From contig JANYHE010000115.1 of assembly GCA_025359215.1 (NCBI GenBank), positions 81,513 to 145,512 on the forward strand: 64,000 bases of DNA, given 5' to 3'. Every line of letters begins with the position of its first letter. The first letter of the stretch is position 1. Of the stretch, positions 44,688 to 64,000 are shown one piece after another. The notes under the pieces were generated by a model. The model was not told where the DNA came from. It did not search any database and saw nothing but the letters and a program-made list of their open reading frames with translations. This DNA is from Hyphomicrobiales bacterium. GTDB lineage: Bacteria > Pseudomonadota > Alphaproteobacteria > Rhizobiales > Aestuariivirgaceae. The position numbers and the translations under genes were made by a program.

Positions 44688-44689
44688 CG

Positions 44690-45538
44690 ATGATTGCAAC
44701 CCGCGCCGAACAATTGTCGCAAAGTCTGCCGCCCCTTCTAGTGAAGGCCGAGCGGATTGCGGCAACGGTGATCTTAGGCGTGCATGGCCGCAGACGCGCA
44801 GGCCCCGGTGAAAACTTCTGGCAATATCGCAATTATAGTTTTGGCGATTCAACGCAGCGCATTGACTGGCACAGAAGTGCAAAATCTGATGCCGTGTTCA
44901 TTCGCGATAATGAATGGGAGGCAGCAAACACTTTATGGCTGTGGTCTAATGCTGGCCCGCGCATGGATTTCAAGTCGCATTTAGCATCCGAAACGAAGAA
45001 GCATCATGCGCAAATTTTGCAATTGGCATTGGCCAGTTTGGCCATTCGCGCCCATGAGCGCATTGGCGCATTGGGCAGCCCGCACCGCGCTGGTGTGGGC
45101 CGTTCTACTTTGCGAGCGATGGCTGATTGGTGCGAAAGCCAACAACCAAATTCACTGCCAAAGCCAAATCAAATGCAACGCCAATCCGCCGCAGTTTTGA
45201 TTTCTGATTTTCTTGATGATCCGGAGGACATCAAGAAGGCGCTCACCCCTTTGGCGCAAAGTGGCGTGCGTGGGCATCTTGTGCAAATTGCAGACCCCGC
45301 CGAGGAAACCCTTCCCTATGACGGTCGCGTAGAATTCCTTGGGCTTGATGGGCCCCAGCGCTTCCTCGCCCCAAAAACTGAAAATTTTCGTGAGCGTTAC
45401 ACCGCAGCCTATGCAAGCCAACGAGAGTCAGTGCGCCAGCTCGCAGGCCGTTTGGGCTGGAGCTTCACAGTTCACCGCACCGATCAACCGCTCATCAAAT
45501 GTCTCCTGGCATTGCATGCGCGGGTGAGCGATCAATAA
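44690..45538 (+). CDS. DUF58 domain-containing protein
   Basis: GRRRAGPGENFWQYRNYSFGDSTQRIDWHRSAKSDAVFIRDNEWE. Confidence 0.93.
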   Translation: MIATRAEQLSQSLPPLLVKAERIAATVILGVHGRRRAGPGENFWQYRNYSFGDSTQRIDWHRSAKSDAVFIRDNEWEAANTLWLWSNAGPRMDFKSHLASETKKHHAQILQLALASLAIRAHERIGALGSPHRAGVGRSTLRAMADWCESQQPNSLPKPNQMQRQSAAVLISDFLDDPEDIKKALTPLAQSGVRGHLVQIADPAEETLPYDGRVEFLGLDGPQRFLAPKTENFRERYTAAYASQRESVRQLAGRLGWSFTVHRTDQPLIKCLLALHARVSDQ

Positions 45539-48258
45539 TGATGTTTCTTAACAGTTTGAGTTTTGCAACACCATTGGCGCTGCTGGGTCTCGCCGCATTG
45601 CCTGTCATTTGGTGGTTGTTGCGCTTCACGCCGCCACGCCCGCTATCGGTCAAATTTCCTCCGCTACGTTTGCTGCTAAAATTGCAATCGGCAGAAGAAA
45701 CACCTCACAAAACTCCATGGTGGCTTTTATTGCTGCGCTTGGCGATGGCTGCCGTTTTGATTGTCGCTGTCGCTCATCCGCTTGCTAAGAAAGATGGGGT
45801 CTCGGTTCAAAGCACAGGCCCACTTTTGGTTATCGTTGATGATGGCTGGGCGGCGGCTAAAAACTGGCCACAGCGCCAAGAAGCCTTACATAACATTCTG
45901 GAGGACGCGCGCGACGCCAACCGCATCGTGACCCTTGCCACAACATCGCAGGCTAGCGATCTCACAAGCATGGCAGCGAGTGATGCACTCAATCTGGCCC
46001 GCACTCTAAAGCCAAAAGCTTTGAGCACGGATCGCCTGAGCCTATTTGCAAAACTGAAAGCGCAAAATGTAAAAGCGGACCAAGTTCTTTGGTTGACCGA
46101 TGGCACAGATGCCGGAACTGCATCCGCATTCAGTGCAGGCCTCACAGCATTATATGGTCAAAACTTGCAAGCTCTCACCTTCAACGAGTCCGATTTACCC
46201 ATCGCCCTCGCCCGCCCCGTGATCGACGGTGGCGATATCAAGGTCACCGCCCTGCGCAGTGCAATCGCAAAAAACAGTGCCATTATTCAAGCCGTTGCGG
46301 GCAATGGTCGGGTGCTGGCCGAAGCGCCCGTCGATTTTGCCAACGCAACCACCGTCAGCGCCAAACTCAGTTTGCCTATCGAACTCAGAAATGAAATTCA
46401 AAGCATCACCATTGCAGGCGAAAACCATGCAGGTGCCAAACAATTGCTGGATGATCGGTGGCGCAGAAAAACAGTCGCAATTCAATCAGGCACCGCACAG
46501 GAACAAGCCCAGCCCCTGCTTTCACCGCTGCATTATGTGACGCGCGCGCTGGAGCCTTATGCCGATTTGCACGAACCTGCAGACACTGCAGAATTAAAAT
46601 CTGAACTTGATGCGGGCCTTTCGATGTTGGTCTTGGCCGATATTGGAAAAATTCCGCAAGATGCTCATGACGCAATTGCGCCGTGGGTTGATAAGGGTGG
46701 CGTTTTGCTGCGCTTTGCAGGCACCCGTCTGGCTGCGAGCAGCGATGATTTAGTGCCCGTCACCTTGCGTGAGGGAGACCGCAATTTGGGCAGTGCCTTG
46801 AGTTGGGAAACTCCGCAATCCATCCAAACCTTCGGCGAAAAAAGTCCATTCGCTGGATTGACCATCGACAGCCGTGTCACAGTCAGCCGTCAAGTTTTGG
46901 CGGAACCTGATGCAGCACTGGCTGAAAAAACCTGGGTGAGCCTAAGCGATGGCACACCCTTGGTGACCGCCGCAAAAAAAGGCAAAGGCCTGATCATTCT
47001 GTTCCACATCACCGCCAATGCCGATTGGTCAAACTTGGCCCTCTCGGGCACCTTTGTTGAAATGTTGCAACGCATTGTAGACCTTGCACCAGCAGCAGGC
47101 AGCAACACGGCAACAGCGAACAACACTGAAACCAACACTGCTTTTTCTCCCCGCCTTTTGCTGGCAGGAACGGGTGAACTGGTCACACCCACCAACACAA
47201 TTGAAGCCATTCCGGTTGCTCAGTTTGATGCCGCAAAAGCCAGCCCCAAAACGCCAGCGGGGCTTTATGCCAATGGTGGCCAAGAACGCGCCATCAATCT
47301 CGATTTGAAAGAAGCCGATTTGGCACCCATCCCAGGATTGGCTTTGCAAAAAGTTGCGCCACCACAAACAACCAGTTTCGCACCACAATTATTTGTGGGC
47401 GCGGCCCTGTTGTTCCTACTTGATACAGTGGCCGCATTGCTTATGGGCGGCGGCTTCCGCCGCAGGGCCGCAACTTTTGGAATGCTCTTGAGTTTCATTG
47501 TCATTATGCCCAGCCCGCAAAATGCCAAAGCCGAAACCACCGACATGCAGGCCGCCCTCGAAACTCATCTGGCTTATGTGAAAACTGGTGACGCTGATAT
47601 CGATCAAACCAGCATGCAAGGCTTGAAAGGCTTAGGCTTGGTCATGGAAGATCGAACCTCCGCCGTGTTGGGCGATCCAGTCGCCATTAACATCGAAACC
47701 GATAATATCGTGTTTTACCCCGTGCTTTATTGGCCCGTCACCGAAGCCGCGCAGGCACCCGGCGATGCAGCATTGGCCCGCCTTGATGCCTTCATGAAAA
47801 ATGGCGGCACCATATTTTTTGATCTGCGCGATGCCGGTGGAGATTTCAACGCCAACAGCGGCACCACCGATGCCCTCAAACGTATCCTCGCAAAACTTGA
47901 TGTTCCTCCGCTAGAGCCTGTCCCAGAATCCCACGCTTTAACCCGCTCTTTCTATCTGTTGAAAGCCTTCCCTGGTCGTTATGAAGGTGGCGCATTGTGG
48001 GTGGAAGCGCAAAACGCTGGTTCCCCCACCAATAATTCTGACGGCGTCTCCGGCGTTATTATTGGCTCGAATGACTATGCCGCTGCTTGGGCCTTGAATG
48101 ATAAAGGTGAGCCCCAAAACGCAATGATCCCCGGCTCCGATCGTCAACGGGAGATGGCCTTTCGTGTGGGCGTCAACATTGTGATGTATGCTTTGACAGG
48201 AAACTACAAAACAGACCAAGTGCATGTGCCCGCCTTGCTGGAAAGGCTAGGTCAATAA
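45538..48258 (+). CDS. BatA N-terminal/DUF4159 domain membrane protein
   Basis: MMFLNSLSFATPLALLGLAALPVIWWLLRFTPPRP; C-terminal VLYWPVTEAAQAP..GGTIFFDLRDAG..AFPGRYEGG DUF4159-like. Confidence 0.9.
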   Translation: MMFLNSLSFATPLALLGLAALPVIWWLLRFTPPRPLSVKFPPLRLLLKLQSAEETPHKTPWWLLLLRLAMAAVLIVAVAHPLAKKDGVSVQSTGPLLVIVDDGWAAAKNWPQRQEALHNILEDARDANRIVTLATTSQASDLTSMAASDALNLARTLKPKALSTDRLSLFAKLKAQNVKADQVLWLTDGTDAGTASAFSAGLTALYGQNLQALTFNESDLPIALARPVIDGGDIKVTALRSAIAKNSAIIQAVAGNGRVLAEAPVDFANATTVSAKLSLPIELRNEIQSITIAGENHAGAKQLLDDRWRRKTVAIQSGTAQEQAQPLLSPLHYVTRALEPYADLHEPADTAELKSELDAGLSMLVLADIGKIPQDAHDAIAPWVDKGGVLLRFAGTRLAASSDDLVPVTLREGDRNLGSALSWETPQSIQTFGEKSPFAGLTIDSRVTVSRQVLAEPDAALAEKTWVSLSDGTPLVTAAKKGKGLIILFHITANADWSNLALSGTFVEMLQRIVDLAPAAGSNTATANNTETNTAFSPRLLLAGTGELVTPTNTIEAIPVAQFDAAKASPKTPAGLYANGGQERAINLDLKEADLAPIPGLALQKVAPPQTTSFAPQLFVGAALLFLLDTVAALLMGGGFRRRAATFGMLLSFIVIMPSPQNAKAETTDMQAALETHLAYVKTGDADIDQTSMQGLKGLGLVMEDRTSAVLGDPVAINIETDNIVFYPVLYWPVTEAAQAPGDAALARLDAFMKNGGTIFFDLRDAGGDFNANSGTTDALKRILAKLDVPPLEPVPESHALTRSFYLLKAFPGRYEGGALWVEAQNAGSPTNNSDGVSGVIIGSNDYAAAWALNDKGEPQNAMIPGSDRQREMAFRVGVNIVMYALTGNYKTDQVHVPALLERLGQ

Positions 48259-50312
48259 TGAATTTGCAATTGGAATTTGCACCGCTCATCGCTTGGCCTA
48301 TTATTTGGGTGTTTGCAGGGCTCACCCTTGCCGCTTTTATTTTGATGCTGATCAAAAGAATCCGCGGAGCAGTTTTGCGTGGGCTAACGGCGGCCATCAT
48401 CTTGGCCACCCTTGCCAATCCAACATTGCGCCAAGATGAACGCCAACCGCTCACCGATATTGTTCTGGCCGTCGTTGATGAAAGCCAAAGCCAATCCATC
48501 GGCAAGCGCACCGAACAAACGCAAAAGGCGTTAGCCGATCTCAAAGCGCGGGTGGCTCAGATGGGCAACACCGAATTGCGCGTTGTTAACATTACATCTG
48601 GCATAGCAGCCAATGCCGATGGCACCCGAATTTTCACAGCCCTTAATCGCGCTGTGGCCGATATTCCTAAAGATCGTTTTGCTGGCGCCGTGCTGATCAC
48701 CGATGGCCAAGTGCATGATGTGCCCACAAGTGCTGCTGGCCTTCCATCACCCATTCACAGCTTAATCACCGGAAGTAAGACCGAGAGTGATCGCCGTTTG
48801 GTGGTGGACCACGCACCGCGATTTGGCATTGTGGGCCAACCACAATCCATTCAGTTTCATGTCGAAGATTCAGCAGGCTCCGGCGCGCACGTCGCTGTAA
48901 CCATTCAAATTCCCGGTGAAGACCCGCGCGTGTTGGATGTGATCACCGGCGATGTGGTCGATATCCCCATGAACATGAGCCACGCTGGTCAAAATTTCAT
49001 GGAACTTTCAGCCGCGTTGCGAGAAGGTGAACTTTCAAAACAAAACAATCACGCCGTTGTGGTGGTTGAAGGCATTCGAGATCGATTGCGCGTGTTGCTC
49101 GTCTCTGGCCAACCGCACCCCGGCGAGCGCACGTGGCGTAATTTATTGAAGGCCGATGCCGCAGTGGATTTGGTGCATTTCACCATTCTGCGCCCGCCTG
49201 AAAAACAAGATGGCACGCCCACGCAAGAGCTCTCTCTGATAGCCTTTCCAACGCGCGAGCTGTTCATTGATAAGCTGAAGCAATTTGATCTTGTGATTTT
49301 TGATCGTTATCGCAGGCAGGCCATTTTGCCTGATGCCTATTTGGCCAATGTGGCTGATTATGTGCGCAGCGGCGGCGCACTGCTCATCGCCTCTGGCCCT
49401 GATTTTGCCGATCCTGAGGGCCTTTACAGCACACCACTTTCAGATGTTCTCAGCGCAGCCCCCACTGGCGCAGTCACCGAGGCGCAATTTAAACCAGCCC
49501 TCACACAAGCGGGCAACCGCCACCCCGTCACAAAGGATTTGCCCGGTGCCAATGGTGGCAAACCTACATGGGGCAGTTGGTTCCGTTTGATCGATACCAA
49601 TGTTGCGCCGGCCTCTGAAACGCTCATGTCTGGCCCTGACAACAAGCCCCTGCTGGTGCTCAGCCACATCGGCGAAGGGCGCGTGGCACAGTTGTTATCT
49701 GATCACGGCTGGCTTTGGGCGCGTGGCTTTGAAGGCGGCGGCCCGCAAACGGAATTGCTGCGCCGCATGGCCCACTGGTTGATGAAGGAACCTGATCTTG
49801 AAGAGGAAGCCCTTTCTGCCAAACAAGTTGGTGGCGATATTGTTATTGAACGCCGCAGCTTGGCAGACACCGTAAAACCAGTCACCCTCACCAGTCCTTC
49901 TGGCAAAACCCAAAGCATAACGCTGGCGCAATCTGCTCCCGGTTTATTCTCTGCCCATGTGCCAGCCCAAGAAGCAGGTCTTCACACCATGACTGATGGC
50001 ACCTTGCAGGCAGCAACGGCCATCGGCAATGCTGATGCTAAAGAAGCTACCGATATTCGTGCTACTCCCGATAAACTAGCCCCCATTGCTAAGGCCACAG
50101 GCGGTGGCATTGCATGGCTGGAAGACGGCTTTCCAAATTTCAACAAAGCCACGCCGAGCCCTTTGATGGCGGGTTCAGGGTGGATGAACTTGCGCGCCAA
50201 CGGGCTTTACCGTGTGACAGCCATCAAAGAGATTTCACTCTTCTCAACTCTGCTCAGCTTGGCGGTTCTATTAGTTGCAGCATCAGCCATGTGGTTTCGC
50301 GAAGGCCGCTGA
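48258..50312 (+). CDS. Membrane protein with glutamine-amidotransferase-like domain, last gene of the MoxR operon
   Basis: N- and C-terminal TMs; VVDESQSQSIG; VADYVRSGGALLIASGPDFADP; ATG overlaps upstream stop. Confidence 0.82.
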   Translation: MNLQLEFAPLIAWPIIWVFAGLTLAAFILMLIKRIRGAVLRGLTAAIILATLANPTLRQDERQPLTDIVLAVVDESQSQSIGKRTEQTQKALADLKARVAQMGNTELRVVNITSGIAANADGTRIFTALNRAVADIPKDRFAGAVLITDGQVHDVPTSAAGLPSPIHSLITGSKTESDRRLVVDHAPRFGIVGQPQSIQFHVEDSAGSGAHVAVTIQIPGEDPRVLDVITGDVVDIPMNMSHAGQNFMELSAALREGELSKQNNHAVVVVEGIRDRLRVLLVSGQPHPGERTWRNLLKADAAVDLVHFTILRPPEKQDGTPTQELSLIAFPTRELFIDKLKQFDLVIFDRYRRQAILPDAYLANVADYVRSGGALLIASGPDFADPEGLYSTPLSDVLSAAPTGAVTEAQFKPALTQAGNRHPVTKDLPGANGGKPTWGSWFRLIDTNVAPASETLMSGPDNKPLLVLSHIGEGRVAQLLSDHGWLWARGFEGGGPQTELLRRMAHWLMKEPDLEEEALSAKQVGGDIVIERRSLADTVKPVTLTSPSGKTQSITLAQSAPGLFSAHVPAQEAGLHTMTDGTLQAATAIGNADAKEATDIRATPDKLAPIAKATGGGIAWLEDGFPNFNKATPSPLMAGSGWMNLRANGLYRVTAIKEISLFSTLLSLAVLLVAASAMWFREGR

Positions 50313-50831
50313 AAGTTCAGCTTGGCGCTGCGGTGGCAAAACCATTCCTGAAACACCTTTCAACGCACCGGGAACAAGTTCAAGAAATAAAAACCGTGCT
50401 GGATCAACCGGTCCTGGCAGTTGCAGCAACCCCGCCGGCAGTTTTTGAAATCCCACCCGCTCATAATAGGGCGCATCCCCCACTAAAAGCACCAGTTTGT
50501 GGCCGTTTGCCTTGGCCCTCTCTAACGTGAAATTCATCAGCGCGCGCCCAATGCCCAAATTCTGCCGCGCCGGATGCACCGCCAGAGGCCCCAGCAAGAT
50601 TGCAGGCGCAAACGTTTTACCTATCACCAAAGGCCAATAACTAATCGCCCCTGCTAATCCCAATTCACTGTCACGGATAACCTGTGAAAGACCTTCGACA
50701 GGGCGACTACCTTCACGCAAGCGATAGGAGGTTTTAGTGCGCCGCCCCAAGCCAAAACTGAGGTCAAGCAAGTCTTCAACACTGCAGTCGTCAGAATGTG
50801 TCTGGGCAGAGGGTGTGAGAGTAAATGTCAT
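50283..50831 (-). CDS. GNAT family N-acetyltransferase
   Basis: LGPLAVHPARQNLGIGRALMNFTLERAKANGHKLVLLVGDAPYYERVGF. Confidence 0.92.
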   Translation of the reverse strand: MTFTLTPSAQTHSDDCSVEDLLDLSFGLGRRTKTSYRLREGSRPVEGLSQVIRDSELGLAGAISYWPLVIGKTFAPAILLGPLAVHPARQNLGIGRALMNFTLERAKANGHKLVLLVGDAPYYERVGFQKLPAGLLQLPGPVDPARFLFLELVPGALKGVSGMVLPPQRQAELSAAFAKPHG

Positions 50832-50990
50832 GGCAGTTCTCTAATCAGGGGGAACAAAGGCACTGCCGTTTCCCAAAAGGAAACCGAACAGCGTGGCTCA
50901 ACAAACTGATGAGCGTCGTCGCAAACTGATGTGTAGATTTCTAACCATAAAAATCGCGATACAGGCTCACCACCGCGCGGTCAAGCACCT

Positions 50991-51458
50991 TCACCACATT
51001 TCTGAAATGGGTTCTCCGTGTAAAATCTCGTCTAGTCGCCGCTGGGTGCCACCCGTCATATCGCTTGGCAATTGCGAAAATGGAAAGAACTTTGCTTCGG
51101 CAATTTCATTATTAGGGTTCCAGCCCGTCTTCGTAAATTTCCGAACAATGTAACAAGCCACATGATCGCCGCGGAAACTGGGCTCATTGGAGAATATCCC
51201 ATGTAAAATTGGGTCGGAACCCAAAATGCCCCCCTCCTCGCGAATTTCGCGCAATGCAGCCTGCTTCAAAGTTTCGCCGCGCTCGACCCCTCCACCCGGC
51301 AAAATCCAGCCCGCCGAATAGGTGTGGCGCACAAGCAAAACTTGATCATCTCCCAACACCGCAACGCGGGAACCCAGTGTCATGCCTCGCAATAACCGCG
51401 ATACTGGTTGCTGCACCGTTTTGGCCGCAATCTTAAAAATCATCTGTTGAATGCTCAT
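50991..51458 (-). CDS. NUDIX hydrolase
   Basis: GWILPGGGVERGETLKQAALREIREEGG. Confidence 0.92.
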   Translation of the reverse strand: MSIQQMIFKIAAKTVQQPVSRLLRGMTLGSRVAVLGDDQVLLVRHTYSAGWILPGGGVERGETLKQAALREIREEGGILGSDPILHGIFSNEPSFRGDHVACYIVRKFTKTGWNPNNEIAEAKFFPFSQLPSDMTGGTQRRLDEILHGEPISEMW

Positions 51459-51543: not shown

Positions 51544-53232
51544 ATGCTGCAAGTTTTTAGAATTTTCTTCAATGCCGAAAAAACCAAACCTTGGCTGGTC
51601 TTATTGTGTTTGCTTCTGGGTGGCATAGCCGAAGCTGCCGGCATTGGCAGCATTTTGCCAGTTGCAAACGCCATGATAAACAGCAGTGGCGGCCCAACCT
51701 CACCTTTAGAACTCTATTTGCGCGCGTTTCTGTCCAGCATGGGCCTCACACCCACGCTTGAAATTCTATTGGTCATGCTTGCAAGCTTCCTTGTTTTGCG
51801 CTCAGCACTTTTGTTCACAGCAGCCACCTACACCGGCATGGCGGGAGCACGCGTGACAATTAATTTGCGCCAACGCCTGATCAAAGCACTTTTCAATGCC
51901 CGCTGGAGTTTTTACAGTGATCAAAGTGGTGGTTCAATCGCCAATGAACTCAGCAACAATGCAGGCAGAGCTGGAGATGCCTATAGTTATGCAGCCCTTG
52001 TCACCTCAATGTTATTTCAAATTGCCGCATATGTGGTGGCAGCTTTCTTGATCAACTGGCGAGTCGCTGTGGCTGCCATGCTGGGCGGCTTGCTGGTTTC
52101 AACAATTTCCGGTCAACTTGTTCGAATTTCACGTCAAACCGGTAAAAAGATTACAACTCGCGTTGCCGTATTTACCTCCGATATGATCGATGTGATGCAT
52201 AACATCAAAGCGCTCAAATCCATGGAACGATACGGACCCATGGTGAAGCGTCTTGATGAAAAACTACGCTTTATAAAGCGCAGTTTATTTCGCGCTAATT
52301 TTGCCAAAGCGGGTTTAACCCATGGCAGCGATGCTCTAATCGCAATCGTGATTTCGATAAGCGCCTATCTCGCTCACACATATGGCAACTCGACATTGCC
52401 CGAGTTGACGGTGATGGGCGTTCTATTTTTTCAACTCATCTACAGCGCATCTCGTCTACAAAAAAATTACCAGGCAGCAACAGAAATCGAAAGCGCATAT
52501 TATTCTGTGCAAGACATGATCACCAATGCCGAAGCGGCGCAAGAACCCCATGATGGCACCAAGCATCCGCAGATCAAAGCTGGCTGCTCATTTCAAAACG
52601 TATCATTTTCTCATGGCAAACAACTGATTGTTGACAGTCTTTCATTTAACATTCCTGTGAATAAAATAACCGTCCTGCAAGGTCCATCAGGTGCAGGAAA
52701 AACCACAATCATAGATTTGCTGATCGGGTTTCATCATCCACAATCAGGCACCATAAAAATTGGGGATGATGATTTGGAATCTGTAGATATTCGTCGTTGG
52801 CGCGAGCAAATTGGCTATGTCCCACAAGAACTCGTTTTGTTTCACGATACTATTCGCGCCAATATTACCTTATCAGATGACACAATTTCCGACGACGCCA
52901 TTAAATCATCTTTGATCAGCGCAGGCGCACCTGATCTTGCGCAGAGACTTGATCATGATGTAGGCGAAATGGGGGGCAAACTTTCTGGCGGCCAAAGGCA
53001 GCGAATTTCATTGGCTAGAGCTCTCGTTAAAAATCCCAAAATCCTCATTTTAGACGAAGTCACCAGCGCGCTTGATCCGGAAACAGAAGCGGCAATTGTC
53101 AGTAACATAGCAAATCTTAAAGGTGCTTACACGATTATTGCCATTACGCACCGACCAGCGTGGACGGCCATAGCCGACAAGCTCTATAAAGTTAAAGCTG
53201 GCCGCATCAGCGAATTAAAAAGGAACAAATAA
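51544..53232 (+). CDS. ABC transporter ATP-binding protein/permease (fused exporter half)
   Basis: Six-TM N-terminal domain; GPSGAGKTTIIDLL, LSGGQRQRISLARAL, ILILDEVTSALDPE. Confidence 0.92.
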   Translation: MLQVFRIFFNAEKTKPWLVLLCLLLGGIAEAAGIGSILPVANAMINSSGGPTSPLELYLRAFLSSMGLTPTLEILLVMLASFLVLRSALLFTAATYTGMAGARVTINLRQRLIKALFNARWSFYSDQSGGSIANELSNNAGRAGDAYSYAALVTSMLFQIAAYVVAAFLINWRVAVAAMLGGLLVSTISGQLVRISRQTGKKITTRVAVFTSDMIDVMHNIKALKSMERYGPMVKRLDEKLRFIKRSLFRANFAKAGLTHGSDALIAIVISISAYLAHTYGNSTLPELTVMGVLFFQLIYSASRLQKNYQAATEIESAYYSVQDMITNAEAAQEPHDGTKHPQIKAGCSFQNVSFSHGKQLIVDSLSFNIPVNKITVLQGPSGAGKTTIIDLLIGFHHPQSGTIKIGDDDLESVDIRRWREQIGYVPQELVLFHDTIRANITLSDDTISDDAIKSSLISAGAPDLAQRLDHDVGEMGGKLSGGQRQRISLARALVKNPKILILDEVTSALDPETEAAIVSNIANLKGAYTIIAITHRPAWTAIADKLYKVKAGRISELKRNK

Positions 53233-53233
53233 T

Positions 53234-54370
53234 ATGACTGCTGTGACCGTGCGCCCTGTCCTCAACAAAGCCGACAAAATAACCTTCCTAAAAGTGCCCT
53301 TCAGCATTTATGCCAATGACCCAAACTGGGTTGCACCCCTTTTTCTTGAACGACTCGAACATCTCGATGTGAAGAAAAATCCTTATTTTCAACACGCCGA
53401 AGCACAACTTTTCATTGCCGAACAAAATGGCAAGCCTGTGGGCCGCATCTCTGCTCAAATTGATCAACTCCATTTTGAGCGTTATAAAGATGCCACTGGG
53501 CAATTCGGTTTTTTAGAAGCGCATAATGATCCTGCAATTTTTAAAGCTCTGTTTGAAGCAGCCGAAAATTGGTTGCGCAGCAAAGGCATGAAGCGGGTGC
53601 TGGGCCCTTTCAGTTTTTCCATCAATGATGAGACAGGATTGTTAATCAAAGGCTTCGACACGCCACCCAATATGATGATGAGCCATGGCACACCCTTTTA
53701 CGCCGCTCATGTTGAAACCAACGGCTTTCACAAAATCAAAGATGTGTTGGCCTACTATCACGACCGTGAAAAGTTTCTGCCCCCCGCAATTGATCGGCTT
53801 TATATGCGCGGCATGGCATCTGGCGATGTGGTGATCCGGCCTTTGAACAAATCGGACATCAAAAACGAAATCAAAATCATCATGGATATCTTCAACGATG
53901 CCTGGAGTGATAACTGGGGCTTCATCCCTTTCACCGATGCTGAATTGCAAGCCTTGGCCACCAATCTCAAAATGCTAGTGCGCAGTGAAGCTGTGCAGAT
54001 TGCTAGCTACCGCGGTGAAAATGCCGCCTTCATCGTCACCTTGCCTAATCTCAACGAATGGATTGCCGGCATGAACGGCAAGTTGCTGCCGTTGAATTGG
54101 ATAAAGCTTGTGGGCAAACTGATCACCAAGAAATCAGATTCTTTCCGCGTGCCGTTGATGGGTGTTCGTAAGAAATTCCAAGATGGGGTTTTGGGTTCAG
54201 CCCTTGCCATTGGCCTCAGCAAAACCGTAGGCGAATTCCATCGTTCACGGGGTGCCAAATCAGCGGAAATGTCTTGGATTTTGGAAGACAATATTGGCAT
54301 GCGCCACATCTTGGAAACGATCGGTGCCACCGCCTATAAAACATACCGCGTTTATGAAAAGCAGCTTTGA
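53234..54370 (+). CDS. GNAT-like acyltransferase, candidate bacterial ceramide synthase (bCerS-like)
   Basis: 378 aa; VPFSIYANDPNWVAPLFLERLEHLDVKKNPYFQHAEAQLFIAEQNGKPVGRISAQID, FSINDETGLLIKGFDTPPNMMMSHGTPFYAAHVETNGF; starts 1 nt after ABC gene; near spt-like operon. Confidence 0.7.
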   Translation: MTAVTVRPVLNKADKITFLKVPFSIYANDPNWVAPLFLERLEHLDVKKNPYFQHAEAQLFIAEQNGKPVGRISAQIDQLHFERYKDATGQFGFLEAHNDPAIFKALFEAAENWLRSKGMKRVLGPFSFSINDETGLLIKGFDTPPNMMMSHGTPFYAAHVETNGFHKIKDVLAYYHDREKFLPPAIDRLYMRGMASGDVVIRPLNKSDIKNEIKIIMDIFNDAWSDNWGFIPFTDAELQALATNLKMLVRSEAVQIASYRGENAAFIVTLPNLNEWIAGMNGKLLPLNWIKLVGKLITKKSDSFRVPLMGVRKKFQDGVLGSALAIGLSKTVGEFHRSRGAKSAEMSWILEDNIGMRHILETIGATAYKTYRVYEKQL

Positions 54371-54376
54371 ACTCAA

Positions 54377-55279
54377 GTGAATTTCACTCTTGCTCATTTA
54401 TCTGATGTGCATTTGGGACCCTTGCCCAAAGGTGCAACATTTGAAAATTTCGCTTTGAAGCGTGTGATTGGTGGGCTTTCATGGTCGCTCAATCGTTATA
54501 AATTGCATCGTCCTGAAATTGCCAACGTCCTGCGCGCTGATATTCAGGCGACTAATCCTTCGCACATCGCCTTCACCGGAGATTTGGTAAACATCGCCGC
54601 CAAAGCAGAGTTCAAGCAAGGCCTTGCTTGGCTCAAGGATTTTGGCAGCGGTGATGCGATCTCTTTTACACCAGGCAACCATGATGCTTATGTGCCTGTG
54701 CCATGGGGTTCAGGTATTGGCCAATTTTCCGACTATATGTCCGGTGACATGCGAACGGACGGGGCTTTCCCTTTCGTGCGCCTCCGCCGCAATATAGCTC
54801 TGATTGGTTTGAACAGCGCCTCTAGACAAAACTTATTTCAGGCGGGGGGTGAGCTCGGTGCTGAACAGCGCAACCGCTTGACTAGCGTTTTGCGCGATCT
54901 GGGTGAACGCGGGTTTTACCGCGTTGTGATGATTCATCATCCGCCTGGCATTGGCTTGTCTCACCCCATGCGCGCATTATCAGATGCAGCTGAAACGCAG
55001 AAAATACTCACCGACGAAGGCGTTGAATTGGTTCTGCATGGCCATAACCATGTGCGAAGCTTAAATCTACTGGATGGCAAAGGTGGAAAAATTCCGCTGA
55101 TTGGAGTGCCGTCAGCTTCCATGGCCGATGCAACCAAACATCACGTTGCATCTTGGAACAGGTATGAAATTTCCAGAAATAAAGGCCAATGGCAAACACA
55201 GGTTTCAATTCGACAGTGGAACCCACAAACTAAAACCATGGTTGATGGAGAGAATTTTGCTCTACCATCGCGCACCTGA
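54377..55279 (+). CDS. Metallophosphoesterase (GTG start)
   Basis: LAHLSDVHLGPLP, ITFTGDLVN-like IAFTGDLVN, FTPGNHDAY, VMIHHPP, LHGHNH. Confidence 0.92.
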   Translation: MNFTLAHLSDVHLGPLPKGATFENFALKRVIGGLSWSLNRYKLHRPEIANVLRADIQATNPSHIAFTGDLVNIAAKAEFKQGLAWLKDFGSGDAISFTPGNHDAYVPVPWGSGIGQFSDYMSGDMRTDGAFPFVRLRRNIALIGLNSASRQNLFQAGGELGAEQRNRLTSVLRDLGERGFYRVVMIHHPPGIGLSHPMRALSDAAETQKILTDEGVELVLHGHNHVRSLNLLDGKGGKIPLIGVPSASMADATKHHVASWNRYEISRNKGQWQTQVSIRQWNPQTKTMVDGENFALPSRT

Positions 55280-55297
55280 AACACGCTAAGAGCAATC

Positions 55298-56386
55298 ATG
55301 AATTTATTTTCTCCAATGACGACAATTGCGGGTTTCTTGAGCCGAATGATCTTGCTGCGCTTTGCAACGATATTGTTTGGTATCACCGCATTTGTGCTCA
55401 CCTTGGAAGTCGTAGGTTATGTTAATGAAATCCTAGCTTTGAATGCAAACCCCCTAACGGCCATTGGCCATTATGTTCTGTTGCGCTGCCCAGCTATTCT
55501 ATCGACATTTCTGCCCATGAGTCTTTTGCTGGCCTTGCTGCTCACCATTACTGAACTCACTTACCGCAACGAAATGTCGGCCATATTTGCTTTGGGTGTT
55601 TCGCCCATTCGCCTCATCGTGATGTTATTGCCCGTTGCGCTCATTGTTGGTGGCTTGCACTTTCTGATTAACGATCAGGCCATTCCTGCCGCGGCCCCCA
55701 CCTTGAAGCAATGGGGCATCGGCGATTACGCCGCAAAGAAACTCAACGTGAGCCAATCAGACCCGATCTGGATCAGATCTGGCCCAGATATTATGCGCGC
55801 TAAAAAGGTCAGTGCAGATTCAAAATCTTTGGAAGATGTAATCGTATTTCGCCGTGAAGAATCCGGTCTGTTGAAAGAGCAAATCTACGCGCAAACGGCT
55901 GCCCAAGATGGTGATCGCTGGTTGCTAAAAAACGTAATCATCTACTACAGCAATAACCTGCCGCCTGATCGATTAGTTTCCATGGTCTACACAGGGAAAA
56001 TGCGCCCCGCCAATGTCACCAAATCAGGTGACCCTGAAGAAATGACGTTGCAAGACTTAGGCTATTTTATCAACAATGATGGTTTTGGAATCCGGCCTGT
56101 CTATGTCTATCAAACATGGTGGCACAAGCGCCTCACGCCGTTCCTGGTCTCGATCATGATGGTGGCGCTGTGTGTTCCGCTTGCCACGCGCTTCCGCCGG
56201 GGTGGCGGCCTCGGCACTCTTTTCGCGGTGGGTGTGGGGCTGGGCTTTCTCTATTTCATCAGCGACGGCATCGCCTCAACGATCGGCGAACTTGGCCTCG
56301 TTACACCTTGGCTGGCGGCATGGACCCCTGTGATCGTGTTCAGCGCCATCGCCTTGGCATTTGTGGCTCGAACCGAAAGAGCTTAG
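55298..56386 (+). CDS. LptF/LptG family permease
   Basis: N-terminal TMs, TYRNEMSAIFALGVSPIRLI; beta-jellyroll middle; C-terminal TMs with RRGGGLGTLFAVGVGLGFLYF. Confidence 0.85.
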   Translation: MNLFSPMTTIAGFLSRMILLRFATILFGITAFVLTLEVVGYVNEILALNANPLTAIGHYVLLRCPAILSTFLPMSLLLALLLTITELTYRNEMSAIFALGVSPIRLIVMLLPVALIVGGLHFLINDQAIPAAAPTLKQWGIGDYAAKKLNVSQSDPIWIRSGPDIMRAKKVSADSKSLEDVIVFRREESGLLKEQIYAQTAAQDGDRWLLKNVIIYYSNNLPPDRLVSMVYTGKMRPANVTKSGDPEEMTLQDLGYFINNDGFGIRPVYVYQTWWHKRLTPFLVSIMMVALCVPLATRFRRGGGLGTLFAVGVGLGFLYFISDGIASTIGELGLVTPWLAAWTPVIVFSAIALAFVARTERA

Positions 56387-57568
56387 TTAAACCACAACAT
56401 CCCTGAACACAGCGATGATCTTATCGATTTCCTCAAAGCTATGAGCGGCAGAAACTGAACAGCGCAGCAAACATAAGCGGTTTGGTGTACCCGGTGGAAT
56501 GGCCATATTCACATAAACGCCAGCCGCGAAAAGTGCGTTCCACTTTGCAATGGTTGTTGCCTCGTCAGGCATTTTGACAGCAATAACTGGGCTCACAACT
56601 TCACTGCCCATTTCCAAGCCTAGAGCGCGAAACCCTTCAAAAAGCCGTGTTGAATTGGCCCAGAGTTTTTCTCTCCGTTCAGGCTCAGCAGCAAGAATTT
56701 TCAAAGCTTCAAGAGAAGTCGCAACCGATGCTGGAGACGCCGATGCCGTGAACATATAGGGGCGCATGGCATAACGCAGTGTTTCAAAAAGCGGATGATT
56801 GCTGGCCCCAAAGCCACCAATGGCACCAACACTTTTGGAGAAGGTTCCAATCACAAAGTCAACGCCATCTTCAAGATTAGCTTCGTCGCCAAGGCCACGC
56901 CCGTGCGGGCCCAGCACACCAAAAGAATGCGCATCATCAACCAGCAACTGGAAATTATGTTTCTTCTTTAAAGCCACAAAATCAGCCAATGGTGCACGAT
57001 CCCCAATCATGGAATAGATGCCTTCCAGCACCACAAGCTTTCCACCTTCAGTGTTGTCATCACGCGCCATGCGCTTATCAAGATCAGCGGCATCATTGTG
57101 CCGAAAGCGCACCAATTTAGCGCCCGATAATGTGCAACCATCATAAATTGATGAATGCGAATCCGCATCGAGAAAGATTGTATCTTTGGGTCCTGCCAAA
57201 CCAGACAACATACCGAGATTGGCTTGATATCCAGTTGTGAAAACGATGCAGTGCTTCAGCCCTAAAAACTTCGCAAGCTCTGCTTCTAATTCTTTGTGCA
57301 GAATGAAGCTGCCATTAGCAATGCGTGAACCTGTTGTGCCCGTGCCAAATTCATCCAGTGCTTTTTTGCCAGCGGCAATGCAGCGCTCATCAAAAGTGAT
57401 ACCCATATAATTATTGGTGCCAGCCAGAATAATTTCGCGATTGCCAACCATGGCCCGTGTCGGTGAAATCATTTGATCATTGGTCACACCCAATGCGTTA
57501 GAGCCCTGCTCCACCATGCGCAGGAAGCGCTCTGCTATTGGTTTATGTTTATCAAGCAGGTCAACCAT
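56387..57568 (-). CDS. spt: Serine palmitoyltransferase-like alpha-oxoamine synthase
   Basis: NNYMGITFDERCIAAGKKALDEFGTGTTGSRIANGS, DDAHSFGVLGPHGRG, GTFSKSVGAIGGF (PLP Lys); preceded by dedicated ACP. Confidence 0.8.
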   Translation of the reverse strand: MVDLLDKHKPIAERFLRMVEQGSNALGVTNDQMISPTRAMVGNREIILAGTNNYMGITFDERCIAAGKKALDEFGTGTTGSRIANGSFILHKELEAELAKFLGLKHCIVFTTGYQANLGMLSGLAGPKDTIFLDADSHSSIYDGCTLSGAKLVRFRHNDAADLDKRMARDDNTEGGKLVVLEGIYSMIGDRAPLADFVALKKKHNFQLLVDDAHSFGVLGPHGRGLGDEANLEDGVDFVIGTFSKSVGAIGGFGASNHPLFETLRYAMRPYMFTASASPASVATSLEALKILAAEPERREKLWANSTRLFEGFRALGLEMGSEVVSPVIAVKMPDEATTIAKWNALFAAGVYVNMAIPPGTPNRLCLLRCSVSAAHSFEEIDKIIAVFRDVVV

Positions 57569-57571
57569 CTC

Positions 57572-57811
57572 TCACGCCTTTTTCAATTGTGATTGAACAT
57601 ACGTGGCAAGTTCACCGATGGTTCGCGTGTCTGACACCACATTCATCGGAATTTCAATATCGAAATGATCTTCCACTTCCATGATGAAATCGAGCACACC
57701 AACGGAATCAATGTTCAATTCAGCAGGAATATCAGTCTCAGCTTTAAGCTCCACATGTTCAGTGTTGAAGGGAGCAAGCAAGGCGCAAATGGCATCTATA
57801 ATATCAGTCAT
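57572..57811 (-). CDS. Acyl carrier protein
   Basis: 79 aa; NIDSVGVLDFIMEVEDHFDIEIP (phosphopantetheine Ser in DSV). Confidence 0.9.
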   Translation of the reverse strand: MTDIIDAICALLAPFNTEHVELKAETDIPAELNIDSVGVLDFIMEVEDHFDIEIPMNVVSDTRTIGELATYVQSQLKKA

Positions 57812-58758
57812 GAGGGCCTTCTAACGGCTTGTTTCAGCGGCGGCAACCAGCCTTCACGGCGATACCAGTTTAATGTTTCTATCAGGCCTTTTTCCAATCC
57901 AATCGGATGAGCGCGGTGCCAGTTATTACCACGCACCACCCAGTCCTCATGATATAACTCGCGCACCTTGGCGCGGTTCACCATGCCGGGCAGTCCTGTA
58001 AAAAACGTCCCCACTTCGGCCCCCAACGCCACCAAAGAAACCAAAACTTTGGGCAAATAAGTAAGGTGCTGCGGAAAACCTGTGTCCTTCGCAGTAATAG
58101 CCGCAAGTTCGGCCCAGCCATGGCCACCACTCATATCGTCAATTTCAAAAAGACCGGTGGATTGGCTAGTTGCGGCATCGGCCACAACAGCGGCAAAATC
58201 ATTAACATGAACCAATGAAAACCGTGCAGATGCTTTTCCGGGAACCAGAGCAACGCGCTTTTGCAATGCCGCCATCAATGGCAAAGTGGCCTTATCGCCC
58301 GGACCATAAATGGCCGATGGCCGCAAAATAACGATATCCATTTCACTTGTGGCCGCTTGCAGAAACTCCTCTGCCGCCCGCTTGCTGGCTGCATAAGCAG
58401 AGATGGAAGGGAGGCGCGCAGCCAGCGACGAAACAAACACAAAGCGCTTAACGCCCGCGGCCTGTGCGGCTTCAAACACATTCTTTGTTCCACCGAAGTT
58501 CACGCGGAAGAATTCAGCTTCAGACGTTGCGCTAATAGCACCCGCAACATGAACAACAACATCCACTTCACTGGTAAGCACCCGCAAAGCTGCAATATCA
58601 TCAAGGCCACCAGTAACAATTTTCGCCGCTGGAAACTGACCGTCGCGGGGCCGCCGCACCAGCGCTTTCACACGATGTCCATCAGCTAAAAGTGCAGAAA
58701 GAATTGGTCCACCTGCAAAACCAGTCGCTCCCGTCAGCGCGATCCGCATGGGCCTCAC
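57808..58758 (-). CDS. NAD-dependent epimerase/dehydratase family, candidate ceramide reductase (CerR-like)
   Basis: ALTGATGFAGGPILSALL, VVHVAGAISA, YAASKRAAEEFL; overlaps ACP gene. Confidence 0.82.
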   Translation of the reverse strand: MRPMRIALTGATGFAGGPILSALLADGHRVKALVRRPRDGQFPAAKIVTGGLDDIAALRVLTSEVDVVVHVAGAISATSEAEFFRVNFGGTKNVFEAAQAAGVKRFVFVSSLAARLPSISAYAASKRAAEEFLQAATSEMDIVILRPSAIYGPGDKATLPLMAALQKRVALVPGKASARFSLVHVNDFAAVVADAATSQSTGLFEIDDMSGGHGWAELAAITAKDTGFPQHLTYLPKVLVSLVALGAEVGTFFTGLPGMVNRAKVRELYHEDWVVRGNNWHRAHPIGLEKGLIETLNWYRREGWLPPLKQAVRRPS

Positions 58759-58775
58759 ATCCTCAAAATTAAAAT

Positions 58776-60563
58776 TTAATGCGCGGCAAAAACATCAATT
58801 TCACCCGCCAGATATTTCTGACGAGCACCATTGCGTGAAAGCTTGCCTGATGATGTGAAAGGTAAACTGCGCGGGGCGACCAAAAGGATTGAACAATCAA
58901 CACCTGCACTTTGATGTACAATCTTTGCCACATCACGGCGCAAGCTTTCTTGACTGGCCACATCGCTGGTGCGGCACTCGACCAGAACCACAACTTCATC
59001 ATCGCCATCTTGGCCTTCAACGGCAAAAGCCGCCACATCACCTGATTTAAGCTCAGGCAATTGCTCTGCCGACCATTCAATATCTTGCGGCCAAATGTTG
59101 CGGCCATTATGCAAGATGAGATCCTTAACGCGACCGGTGATAACAATCTCACCGTTCAACACATAACCCATATCGCCCGTATCCAAGAACCCATCAGAAC
59201 CGATGGCTTCAGCCGTGGCTTCTTCATTGTTGAAATAGCAGCTCATCAAGCTGGGGCCAGACACATAAATGCGGCCAATTTCGCGTTCGCCCAAAACGAC
59301 GCCTGCTTCATTGCGCACTTGCATCACATGGCCTTCAATGGCCTTGCCACAAATCACAAAGCTGCGGGCAACTTCATCATCACCATCCACCATTGGCACT
59401 GCTTTCTGCTGGCTGCGAATGGCGGCACGTGAAACCCGGTCCACACGCACGGGAAGGTCAGCACCCGCAAAAGAAATCGCCAAAGTAGATTCAGCCATGC
59501 CGTAGCTGGGCAAAAATGAGGTGGGGCTAAATTTGGAAACACTTAACGTATCAGCAAAGGCCTTCAACACATCAGGCCGCACCATGTCACCGCCAATGCC
59601 TGCAATGCGCCACGCTGAAAGATCCAGCGAAACCGCTTCACCATTGATCCGGCGTGCCGCTAAATCATAACCGAAGGTGGGAGAAAATGAGATTGTCGAA
59701 CGGTTTTCAGCCATCAATTTCAGCCACAATGCAGGCCTGCGGGCAAAGGCTGTCGTTGCTAAATAATCAACAGTCACCTGCGCCAGCATGGGGGCTAAGC
59801 AAAACCCAACCAAACCCATATCATGATAAAGTGGCAACCACGAAAAAGCACGATCATCGTTGCGCAGTTTCATGCCATCAAAATGCATGCCTTTGGCATT
59901 GGCCATGATGGCACGTTGCGAAATCAAAACGCCTTTTGGTGCGGAAGTAGAACCCGACGAATATTGAATATAAGCCACGTCATCAGCACTAAAACCATGC
60001 AGCTTGGTCATGCTTTCAGGCAATGAGGCAACATCATCATGAGTAAGAACAAGGGCAACACCTGCCGCATCAGCAGCAGCTTGAGCAGAGTCGAGCATTT
60101 CAGCGGGTGTAACGATGGCATGAGCGTGAGCGGCCTTCATCATGCCAGCAATACGCGTCACGTAAGATTCTTTGCCACCAATATACATGCTGTAAGGAAC
60201 GGGGCATGGAACTAAACCAGCATATTGGCAGGCAAAAAACGTGATCATAAAATCAGCATTTGTCTCAGCCACAATAGCAACCCGGTCTAAACGCTTTAGC
60301 CCGGAAGACAATAATTTACGGGCCGTGCAAAGTGCCTTGCTGCGCAATTCAGAATAAGTCAGCACCACATCCAAAGCACCGCGGCCAGTGTAAAAATTAA
60401 AGCCCGTAACGCCGCGCGCGGCATAATCCAAGCCCTGCGCCAAAGTGGAAAATCCGCCCAACTGTTGAGGTACATCGCGATTTGACCTTGGAGTGCGCGA
60501 CAAAACAGGTTCATCCGCTGGTGAGCTATTTACGGCCAAAGAGATTGTTTTCGTCAATTCCAC
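58776..60563 (-). CDS. Fatty acyl-AMP ligase/acyl-ACP synthetase
   Basis: YIQYSSGSTSAPKGVLISQRAIMAN, SWLPLYHDMGLVG, SYGMAESTLAIS, DTGDMGYVLNGEIVITGRVKDLILHNGRNIWPQDIE. Confidence 0.92.
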   Translation of the reverse strand: MELTKTISLAVNSSPADEPVLSRTPRSNRDVPQQLGGFSTLAQGLDYAARGVTGFNFYTGRGALDVVLTYSELRSKALCTARKLLSSGLKRLDRVAIVAETNADFMITFFACQYAGLVPCPVPYSMYIGGKESYVTRIAGMMKAAHAHAIVTPAEMLDSAQAAADAAGVALVLTHDDVASLPESMTKLHGFSADDVAYIQYSSGSTSAPKGVLISQRAIMANAKGMHFDGMKLRNDDRAFSWLPLYHDMGLVGFCLAPMLAQVTVDYLATTAFARRPALWLKLMAENRSTISFSPTFGYDLAARRINGEAVSLDLSAWRIAGIGGDMVRPDVLKAFADTLSVSKFSPTSFLPSYGMAESTLAISFAGADLPVRVDRVSRAAIRSQQKAVPMVDGDDEVARSFVICGKAIEGHVMQVRNEAGVVLGEREIGRIYVSGPSLMSCYFNNEEATAEAIGSDGFLDTGDMGYVLNGEIVITGRVKDLILHNGRNIWPQDIEWSAEQLPELKSGDVAAFAVEGQDGDDEVVVLVECRTSDVASQESLRRDVAKIVHQSAGVDCSILLVAPRSLPFTSSGKLSRNGARQKYLAGEIDVFAAH

Positions 60564-60655: not shown

Positions 60656-61177
60656 CTAAAAATGTAGCTTTCCCAATAAGATAGCAGCCACCAAAAGCCC
60701 TAAAACGCCGAATGCACACCCTGTGATCCAAACATAAATAAGTGATCCGAGTGAATAACCGAGGCGCGAATCTTTAAAGGGATTCGAAATGCCAGCCACA
60801 GCCCTGTCATGGATAACAATCCGGTGTGCTAAATAACGCGTCAAAAAATCAACTGTTGCTCGTAACTCACCAGACTCAAACAGTGTTTCGCGCTGCCCAT
60901 CGTGGTCTTGCACCAGCCTGTAAGTGCGTGGATCAGGCTCCATCACCACAGATGAAACAAGATCAATCCAAAGCCTCGGGTTGGCACCGGATTGAACATT
61001 AAGTTCAAAAAGCTTCAAAGCCTCAGAATGACCAGACAACAGTGGCACAAGTGAAGTGCGAAGAGTTTCCAAACGCAAAGACTTGGCATCGCGCAAGTTT
61101 AGAGCAGATTCCAATTGCGCTGACTCCGCAAGTCGCGCCTCTCGCAATGCCGCTGTTAATTTGTCCTGCTCAGTCAT
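60656..61177 (-). CDS. Hypothetical protein with C-terminal TM segment
   Basis: Coiled N-terminus; C-terminal SLGSLIYVWITGCAFGVLGLLVAAILLG. Confidence 0.6.
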   Translation of the reverse strand: MTEQDKLTAALREARLAESAQLESALNLRDAKSLRLETLRTSLVPLLSGHSEALKLFELNVQSGANPRLWIDLVSSVVMEPDPRTYRLVQDHDGQRETLFESGELRATVDFLTRYLAHRIVIHDRAVAGISNPFKDSRLGYSLGSLIYVWITGCAFGVLGLLVAAILLGKLHF

Positions 61178-62253: not shown

Positions 62254-64000
62254 TTATCCATGGTCGACCTCAGCTTGCGTGACTGTGTGTACCCAAGTGA
62301 AGGTAATAGATGCGCCCGGCGCAAGTGTTGACCACACGCCGTCATTTGCTGTTGCATCGGTAGAGGCAGCCGCACCATAAGGCCCGGGAACTGTCAGGGT
62401 TTCAGACGTAATCCCACCCGCACCCACAGGCACCACAACGGCGGGCGTGCCGTGCATGTCACTCACGGAAACATTGGTCATTGGCACGTTGCCAATATTG
62501 GTGACAGTGTAGGTGTAGGTGACAATTTCATTGAGATCAGCCTTGCCCGCTGTAAGGCCGGGTGTATCTGTTAAAACGAACGACTTTACGGTGCTCAGCA
62601 ACGGGCTAGAGGTGATGGTTGTTGAAGCAGAAGAATTGGGTGCCGTGATTGTAGCCGCTGCCGGGCTTTTGCCTGTGGCCGATGCAGTGTTAGTAACACC
62701 ATTTGCAATGCCGACACCATTTTTAACATCAGTGAGGGACAAAATATAAACAGCTGTGAAAGATTGCGATGCGCCAGCCGCTAAAGTAACGGATCCCGCG
62801 GGCGAAAACGCACCCAGCGCATTCGTTCCGGCAATGCCATTAAACTTCGGCCCTGCATCTGATGGGAACACCGTGGTCAAGGTCACACTGCCCACGTTTT
62901 TCAAAACATAAGTAAACGTAATGGTGTCGCCAGCATCGGTAATTGAGGCGCTGGTGCCAGCTGCAATTGTAGGTGCGGCGGCTGTCTTGGTCACGGTAAG
63001 ACCCGCTACAGTCGTAATTGAAGTTGAGGCTGTAGCATTAGAGGACGTCGCCGTTAATGTTCCAGAAACGCCAGTTGCTTTTGCTGTGTTTGTAACACCA
63101 TTTGCCACCCCGGCCCCGTTCATCACATCCGCTGCAGAAAGCGTGTAGGTAGCAGTAAAAACTTGATTAGCACCCACGGCAATTGAAGCTGACGCTGGTG
63201 TATAAGCACTCATCGTTCCTGTGCCAGCCACGCCATTAAATTTTGGACCAACATCCACAGGCGCAACAGTGGTGAGCGCCACCGACCCTGTGTTGGTGAC
63301 AGTATAAGTATAGGTAATTTTATCTCCAGCATCCGTCAACGTGGCGCTGGTGCCCGAGGCAACAGTGGGCGCACCCGCAGCCTTAGTAAGGCTCAATGCT
63401 GCAATCTTGATGGTGGCAACTGCAGTGTTAGAATTATCAACCCCATCATTCACAATCACATTGATCAGCTTATCCGGCCCTGCCGGATTAGCAGCGGAGC
63501 TGGAATAAGTGATCGCTTGCAAGGCCGCTTTATATTCCGCCAAAGTGCCAACACCTGAAAGTGTTATGGTTCCCGTTCCGGAATTATAGGCTGAAGCTGA
63601 AATGCTGCCGGGCAAAGCTCCCGCCGTCAAAAGATCACCCGCAGTCAAATTTGAAATTGTAATTGTGGCTGAGGAAATGGTCGTTCCATCATCACTGATC
63701 GTGTCATCGGCAGCAGCAATGGCAACCCCTGCATTGCCTTCAGCCCATGTGGTGGAATAGCTGGTACCAGAAGCTGCTGCAGAAAGATCAATGGCAGGCG
63801 GGTTGTTCAAAATAGTGGACGTCGACACGAACGCGATTGAGTCATAGGCGGCGTCTCCCACATCCGCAATCCGAATGGTGAGCGTATAAGTAGTGCCTGG
63901 CACCACGTTAAAAGCGTTGATGAAAACAGTGGTGGCACCATCCATCTTAATGTCTGAAATGGGAGGAGTGGCCACGCTGTTGTCGCGATAAAAGCCTGAG
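62254..64000 (-). CDS. DUF11-type repeat surface/secreted protein, 5' end beyond window
   Basis: Tandem ~130-aa repeats (TxxAxAPTxAxGTSATxTDAGDxITxTYxxxNxGSVxLTTVxPxDxGPKFNG..). Frame stays open to the window edge (SGFYRDNSVATPP), so the listed GTG at 63975 is internal. Confidence 0.82.
   Translation of the reverse strand, partial: SGFYRDNSVATPPISDIKMDGATTVFINAFNVVPGTTYTLTIRIADVGDAAYDSIAFVSTSTILNNPPAIDLSAAASGTSYSTTWAEGNAGVAIAAADDTISDDGTTISSATITISNLTAGDLLTAGALPGSISASAYNSGTGTITLSGVGTLAEYKAALQAITYSSSAANPAGPDKLINVIVNDGVDNSNTAVATIKIAALSLTKAAGAPTVASGTSATLTDAGDKITYTYTVTNTGSVALTTVAPVDVGPKFNGVAGTGTMSAYTPASASIAVGANQVFTATYTLSAADVMNGAGVANGVTNTAKATGVSGTLTATSSNATASTSITTVAGLTVTKTAAAPTIAAGTSASITDAGDTITFTYVLKNVGSVTLTTVFPSDAGPKFNGIAGTNALGAFSPAGSVTLAAGASQSFTAVYILSLTDVKNGVGIANGVTNTASATGKSPAAATITAPNSSASTTITSSPLLSTVKSFVLTDTPGLTAGKADLNEIVTYTYTVTNIGNVPMTNVSVSDMHGTPAVVVPVGAGGITSETLTVPGPYGAAASTDATANDGVWSTLAPGASITFTWVHTVTQAEVDHG

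Follow-up and report, generated by a model that had tools for sequence, protein, structure and literature searches.

What purpose can a ceramide locus serve when it includes a gene for a permease subunit of Lpt, the export machine of lipopolysaccharide (LPS), in a bacterium whose lineage appears devoid of lipid A genes? The question is raised by a stretch of 64,000 nucleotides (hereafter the window) from a Hyphomicrobiales bacterium of the Aestuariivirga group (assembly GCA_025359215.1, contig JANYHE010000115.1, positions 81,513 to 145,512), which contains a compact locus for the biosynthesis of ceramides, the core of sphingolipids. The answer that we favour, with a probability of about 0.75, is that the organism has an LPS-free outer membrane, and that a re-assigned Lpt machine would export a sphingolipid to serve as its outer-leaflet lipid. 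The initial annotation of the window had recognized the ceramide enzymes but not the genes for LptG, a phosphoesterase and an ABC exporter in the same locus; the lack of lipid A genes in the lineage, which could not be seen from the window, changes the probable purpose of the ceramides.

The five functional classes of ceramide biosynthesis assigned to the interval 53234-60563 in the initial annotation were all confirmed, with the open reading frames (ORFs) of the five enzymes located exactly there. The serine palmitoyltransferase (SPT) scored 574.2 bits against the NCBIfam equivalog NF047599 (cut-off 500), and the acyl-AcpR synthetase AasR 766 bits against NF006624 (cut-off 600), the PRK09192 subfamily of the fatty acyl-AMP ligases; the epimerase, PP-binding and AMP-binding Pfam domains all exceeded their cut-offs as well. 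Comparison by BLASTP with the cluster of Escherichia coli BL21(DE3) gave matches for all five proteins (35-48%), namely 48% over 385 for SPT, 46% over 379 columns, i.e. the full length, between bCerS and YghO, 44% over 548 aa for AasR, 35% over 302 aa between CerR and epi, and 35% over 65 aa for AcpR. The locus of Caulobacter radicis, whose ORFs were called by codon-position score (the longest ORF is unsuitable at high GC), also matched throughout, with 54% for SPT, 47% for AasR, 46% for bCerS, 39% for CerR and 35% for AcpR. The motifs TGATGFAG (TGxxGxxG) and YAASK (YxxxK) can be read in the sequence of CerR, the homologue of CC_1164 and epi. The acpR gene stands directly before spt, with aasR in the same operon, and both are homologous to tested proteins: the mechanism of SPT, AcpR and AasR has been shown in C. 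crescentus and E. coli B, and the three BL21 proteins were themselves tested (PMC9386255).

bCerS falls outside the Pfam and NCBIfam families, with a sub-threshold match to GNAT as its sole hit. An AlphaFold (AF2) model built on an alignment of 26 relatives reached a mean predicted local distance difference test (pLDDT) score of 87.5, and its best PDB matches were tandem GNATs, i.e. MAB_4324 (E 7e-16), glucosamine N-acetyltransferase and mycothiol synthase. The protein therefore models as a tandem GNAT, which bears out its earlier description as GNAT-like, and its full-length relation to YghO and to the Caulobacter protein supports its assignment as bCerS.

An alpha-oxoamine synthase could in principle be a BioF, KBL or ALAS enzyme, or an enzyme with alanine or cysteate as its substrate, in which case the end product would not be a ceramide; SPT itself is reported to accept alanine or glycine too, though far less efficiently (PMC10196870). 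This is very improbable here. Besides passing the SPT equivalog, the synthase has Sphingomonas SPTs as its best structure matches; with the Sphingomonas wittichii structure 2x8u it aligns end to end (442 bits), conserving the segment of the pyridoxal phosphate lysine (GTFSKS), DADSH, the aspartate/histidine segment (VD[DE]AH) and LLRCS. In trees covering SPT, KBL and ALAS, it falls among other Hyphomicrobiales SPTs and apart from the KBL and the two ALAS of its own genome, which are separate genes passing the KBL and ALAS equivalogs. Among named records, the nearest SPTs (69-83%) are from metagenome-assembled genomes of this order and from Aestuariivirga. The earlier assignment as an SPT thus held against KBL and ALAS, and the genes for AcpR, AasR, CerR and bCerS are adjacent to it. 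A further SPT-like gene, that of genome G230 (L157), was not used, since it scored below the cut-off and had no AcpR or AasR match within the surrounding 20 kb.

On the minus strand, spt, acpR, cerR and aasR are separated by +3, -4 and +17 bases, a spacing as in an operon. The convergent GNAT-like gene of the initial annotation lies on the plus strand as stated, but does not stand alone: it is part of a run of ABC exporter, bCerS, phosphoesterase and LptG genes (51544-56386) with gaps of 1, 6 and 18 bases, of which lptG converges on spt. This whole order is repeated across the genus, and the same genes in the same order occur in other families with phosphoglycerate-branch genes in between; the gene set is, therefore, not a chance assembly. 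The locus had been called near-complete, and the qualification can be dropped, because the ceramide core is complete. On the strength of gene set, order and homology, the earlier proposal that the organism makes ceramides is supported, and it is very likely that the locus encodes ceramide synthesis.

The genome to which the window belongs (G000; 3.02 Mb, 148 contigs) is 99.2% complete. SPT was above the cut-off in nearly all the genus members sampled, and LpxC was found in none of the 37 genus genomes, 29 of which are at least 90% complete; the same search gave matches in E. coli, Caulobacter, Bacteroides and Synechococcus, used as controls. A concatenated E. coli query for LpxB, LpxK, WaaA and KdsB retrieved none of the first three from any of the 18 family genomes, including a four-contig assembly of 100% completeness, nor from six genomes of four other families that have SPT and no LpxC. 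In the LPS-containing relatives, LpxB, LpxK and WaaA were all present in five, while the sixth (G029) had LpxB only. Lipid A is, on this evidence, very likely to be absent from the cell. The presence of sphingolipid genes together with the absence of lipid A genes is the gene pattern of an LPS-less outer membrane of the Sphingomonas kind.

The same association was seen across the order. In a sample of 298 Hyphomicrobiales genomes, LpxC was present in 258 (the 40 genomes outside this list being taken as LpxC-negative) and SPT was above the cut-off in 37. LpxC was missing from 27 genomes with SPT and present in 10, the corresponding numbers for genomes without SPT being 13 and 248 (Fisher p 1.5e-20, not corrected for kinship). 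Mapped on the SPT tree, LpxC must have changed its state three times, including once within family f34. In this family (G070, G111, G175 and G282 as against G145 and G298), several genomes have two LpxC-like genes; some of those with SPT keep only a weaker-scoring copy (G225, G246, G265), and two have none. The family looks as if loss of LpxC were in progress beside the ceramide locus. Outside the order, Nitrosomonas europaea reportedly retains a single lipid A gene (PMC3087551), and N. eutropha has ceramide genes (PMC9386255).

Components of the Lpt machine have, however, been retained without the lipid A genes. LptD was present in 31 of 31 genomes, and the window genome's own gene is intact on contig C73. 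In the LPS-containing relatives, lptF or lptG adjoins lptD; in ten LPS-less genomes, among them that of the window, neither gene was found there, although some of the stretches compared were short and in the window genome only about 1.3 kb of contig follow lptD. When 56 LptF/LptG proteins were placed in a tree, the canonical LptG proteins encoded beside lptD formed one clade (support 100), and the window LptG nested in the clade of LptG proteins from ceramide loci. Homologues of LptF/LptG number only three in the window genome, i.e. the window LptG, which is its only LptG, and two side-by-side LptF-like genes on contig C41. Both LptF/LptG pairs are carried by G030, which has SPT and LpxC, while only the ceramide-locus pair is present in several complete genomes of the genus, G005 among them. 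The lptD neighbourhoods and the LptF/LptG tree thus indicate that the LPS-type permease was lost with lipid A and the ceramide-type one was kept. The idea that LptF2 had been lost from the window's clade, leaving half a permease, was ruled out by the LptF of ceramide-locus type on contig C41.

If the ceramides were only accessory lipids, LPS might still come from lipid A enzymes that have diverged or are non-homologous, and be served by Lpt, which would account for the retention of LptD and KdsB and agree with the LpxC of some SPT-containing relatives. We regard this as quite unlikely, because LpxC, LpxB, LpxK and WaaA are jointly missing from all 18 family genomes, with queries that do match in the LPS-containing relatives, and because the canonical lptFG pair has been lost as well. 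Somewhat less unlikely, but still improbable, is a cell with ceramides and no LPS in which Lpt carries another surface lipid or a glycan containing 3-deoxy-D-manno-octulosonic acid (Kdo), the position of lptG being historical. KdsB, the CMP-Kdo synthetase, is kept, LptF is away from the ceramide locus in the window genome, and the route of bacterial sphingolipids to the outer membrane is stated to be unknown (PMC11324152, PMC11087976), their transport by Lpt having so far only been proposed (PMC11324152). Yet the retained LptF and LptG are of the ceramide-locus rather than the LPS type, bcerS is accompanied by lptG in the whole genus as well as in other families, and G030 keeps one LptF/LptG pair per lipid. 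Export of a sphingolipid by Lpt therefore remains, in our judgement, the likely cargo assignment.

The pathway can be outlined from the studied homologues. AasR would load a free fatty acid onto AcpR, SPT would condense the acyl-AcpR with L-serine to 3-oxo-sphinganine, and N-acylation by bCerS and reduction by CerR, in either order (the order of these two steps is disputed; PMC11087976), would yield dihydroceramide. The ABC exporter encoded directly upstream of bcerS is a candidate inner-membrane ceramide flippase, a role suggested by its place: it adjoins bcerS also in L033 (80% over the part covered), L144/G114 (58%), L135/G028 (52%) and L040 (41%). An Lpt bridge, with LptG from the ceramide locus and LptF from another contig, would then lift the sphingolipid to LptD in the outer membrane, where it would replace LPS, the lipid A pathway having been lost. 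Since the genus has no LPS genes, ceramides travelling on the former LPS export machine therefore probably form the outer face of the outer membrane.

Several points weigh against an LPS-free membrane supplied in this way. Nearly all the LPS-less genomes still have KdsB, and Kdo may therefore still be made for something; in the window genome, the KdsB-like gene (G000:C144:31797-32513; L154:6777-7526) has no obvious glycan genes adjoining it. Ten genomes with SPT keep LpxC, so that the link between SPT and loss of LpxC is not obligatory, and because most LpxC-negative families share one SPT lineage, the independent losses are few. Some relatives have no ABC exporter next to bcerS. It should also be noted that the evidence for LPS loss consists of gene absences, mostly in draft genomes, and that the Lpt searches covered LptD, LptF and LptG.

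Sphingomonads are without LPS and use sphingolipids (PMC11324152, PMC11087976), and Sphingomonas, in which a glycosphingolipid takes the place of LPS, has an SPT of the same family (2x8u/2jg2). The window, however, comes from a different alphaproteobacterial order, in which the loss of lipid A genes can be traced within Hyphomicrobiales, and its ceramide core is one tight locus, whereas the sphingolipid genes of Sphingomonadales are scattered (PMC9386255, PMC11324152). The enzymes add members to families already known, and the replacement of LPS in sphingomonads was already known; the new part is the setting of Lpt without LPS outside Sphingomonadales, with a ceramide-type permease and a compact locus without the phosphoglycerate branch. 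A literature search found no description linking Aestuariivirga or Hyphomicrobiales to sphingolipids or LPS loss, but covered subscription journals incompletely, so that an earlier mention is possible. A lineage without lipid A genes that has LptD and, as its remaining LptF/LptG pair, the ceramide type represents a natural experiment pointing to Lpt as the sphingolipid exporter, and allows this to be tested where LPS would not interfere. The case further suggests that sphingomonads are not the only bacteria to have given up LPS for sphingolipids, which is relevant to the question of why most Gram-negative bacteria cannot do without lipid A.

As for the known loci, that of C. crescentus (CC_1168-CC_1152) likewise has an aasR-cerR-acpR-spt operon and a bcerS in a separate operon with LptG2 adjoining, as well as an orthologue of the phosphoesterase (PMC11324152). 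Unlike it, the window has no ceramide kinase, no CC_1161/CC_1159/CC_1153/CC_1152-type genes and no LptF2 neighbour in the locus; its ABC exporter stands where Caulobacter has another flippase candidate (CC_1166), and Caulobacter keeps LpxC, which the window's genus lacks. In the yghO-aasR-epi-acpR-spt-lptG-lptF cluster of E. coli BL21, the same five enzymes are found with the same four-gene operon order and with lptG convergent with spt, but bCerS is divergent from aasR, while in the window it lies beyond lptG. The LptG proteins of the two are only 25% identical, and E. coli makes LPS.

The head group of the putative sphingolipid could be phosphoglycerate, giving CPG or CPG2 as in Caulobacter, with the window phosphoesterase taking part. 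In C. crescentus, CC_1158 contributes to CPG2 (PMC11324152); the window enzyme, which is kept in place throughout the genus, would correspond to it by position, and is 37% identical over 296 aa to an ORF of the C. radicis locus. Moreover, in some relatives, for example L033, the whole Caulobacter-like set is still present between spt and bcerS, i.e. a Tam41-like protein (recognized by eye, with no Pfam match), a DAGK-type kinase, a CDP-alcohol transferase, a HIT protein and two nucleotidyltransferases. Nevertheless, a phosphoglycerate head group appears unlikely in the window's organism. The CC_1160 kinase, required for CPG in C. crescentus (PMC11324152), has no match in the whole window genome (there is one in 29 of the 37 genus genomes), and no Tam41-like, CDP-alcohol transferase or nucleotidyltransferase genes are found in the window locus. 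None of the CC_1161/1159/1153/1152-type genes occurs at the locus; genome-wide, PF09139 (for CC_1161) gave no match, but its control was silent as well.

Outside the window, contig C41 carries a group of genes that is a candidate glycosphingolipid head-group and export locus. Its ABC exporter is a paralogue of the window's (39%), and the group is kept in G003 (L155) and G041 (L151), and partly in G013 (L150). Given the missing kinase and this group of glycosyltransferase, DUF6492, ABC and LptF genes, a sugar is a better guess than phosphoglycerate in the window's own subclade, though the inference is weak. The widest formulation, in which a broad group of Hyphomicrobiales families is without LPS and has re-assigned Lpt through the LptF/LptG of the ceramide locus, the window's subclade having in addition swapped phosphoglycerate for a sugar head group through this second locus, is tentative, and we give it somewhat less than an even chance.

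Table 1. Features of the ceramide locus (positions in the window) and of the gene group on contig C41.
Feature	Position	Strand	Remarks
MsbA/PglK-type ABC exporter, 562 aa	51544..53232	+	Pfam ABC_membrane and ABC_tran; directly upstream of bcerS
bCerS-like ceramide synthase, tandem-GNAT N-acyltransferase, 378 aa	53234..54370	+	Homology and predicted fold
Calcineurin-like metallophosphoesterase, 300 aa	54377..55279	+	PF00149; orthologue of Caulobacter CC_1158-position phosphoesterase
LptG, ceramide-locus type, 362 aa	55298..56386	+	PF03739, TIGR04408-like
SPT, 393 aa	56387..57568	-	NF047599
AcpR, dedicated acyl carrier protein, 79 aa	57572..57811	-	PF00550; Ser36 in DSV motif
CerR, ketosphinganine/oxidised-ceramide reductase, SDR/epimerase, 316 aa	57808..58758	-	PF01370
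AasR, acyl-AcpR synthetase, fatty acyl-AMP ligase family, 595 aa	58776..60563	-	NF006624
173-aa protein, one C-terminal hydrophobic stretch	60656..61177	-	Just upstream of aasR
C41 group (outside the window)	L153:1862-8690		ABC exporter, DUF6492 protein, GT2/GT21-like glycosyltransferase, divergent from two tandem LptF-like genes

The start codon of aasR is GTG, and its start is uncertain. The 173-aa protein upstream has no Pfam or NCBIfam match, but among related loci that extend far enough, most have its gene in the same position, in LPS-less relatives. On the other side, genes for a GNAT acetyltransferase and a NUDIX hydrolase (50283-51458, minus strand) remain neighbours of the ceramide locus in much of the genus. 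The window also has a typical MoxR/BatA-type operon (43707-50312, plus strand) encoding a MoxR AAA-ATPase, DUF58 and BatA/DUF4159 proteins and a 684-aa protein without Pfam match. At the edge of the window, a long ORF (62254-63975, minus strand) with repeated DUF7507/DUF11-type domains encodes a repeat protein resembling surface adhesins.

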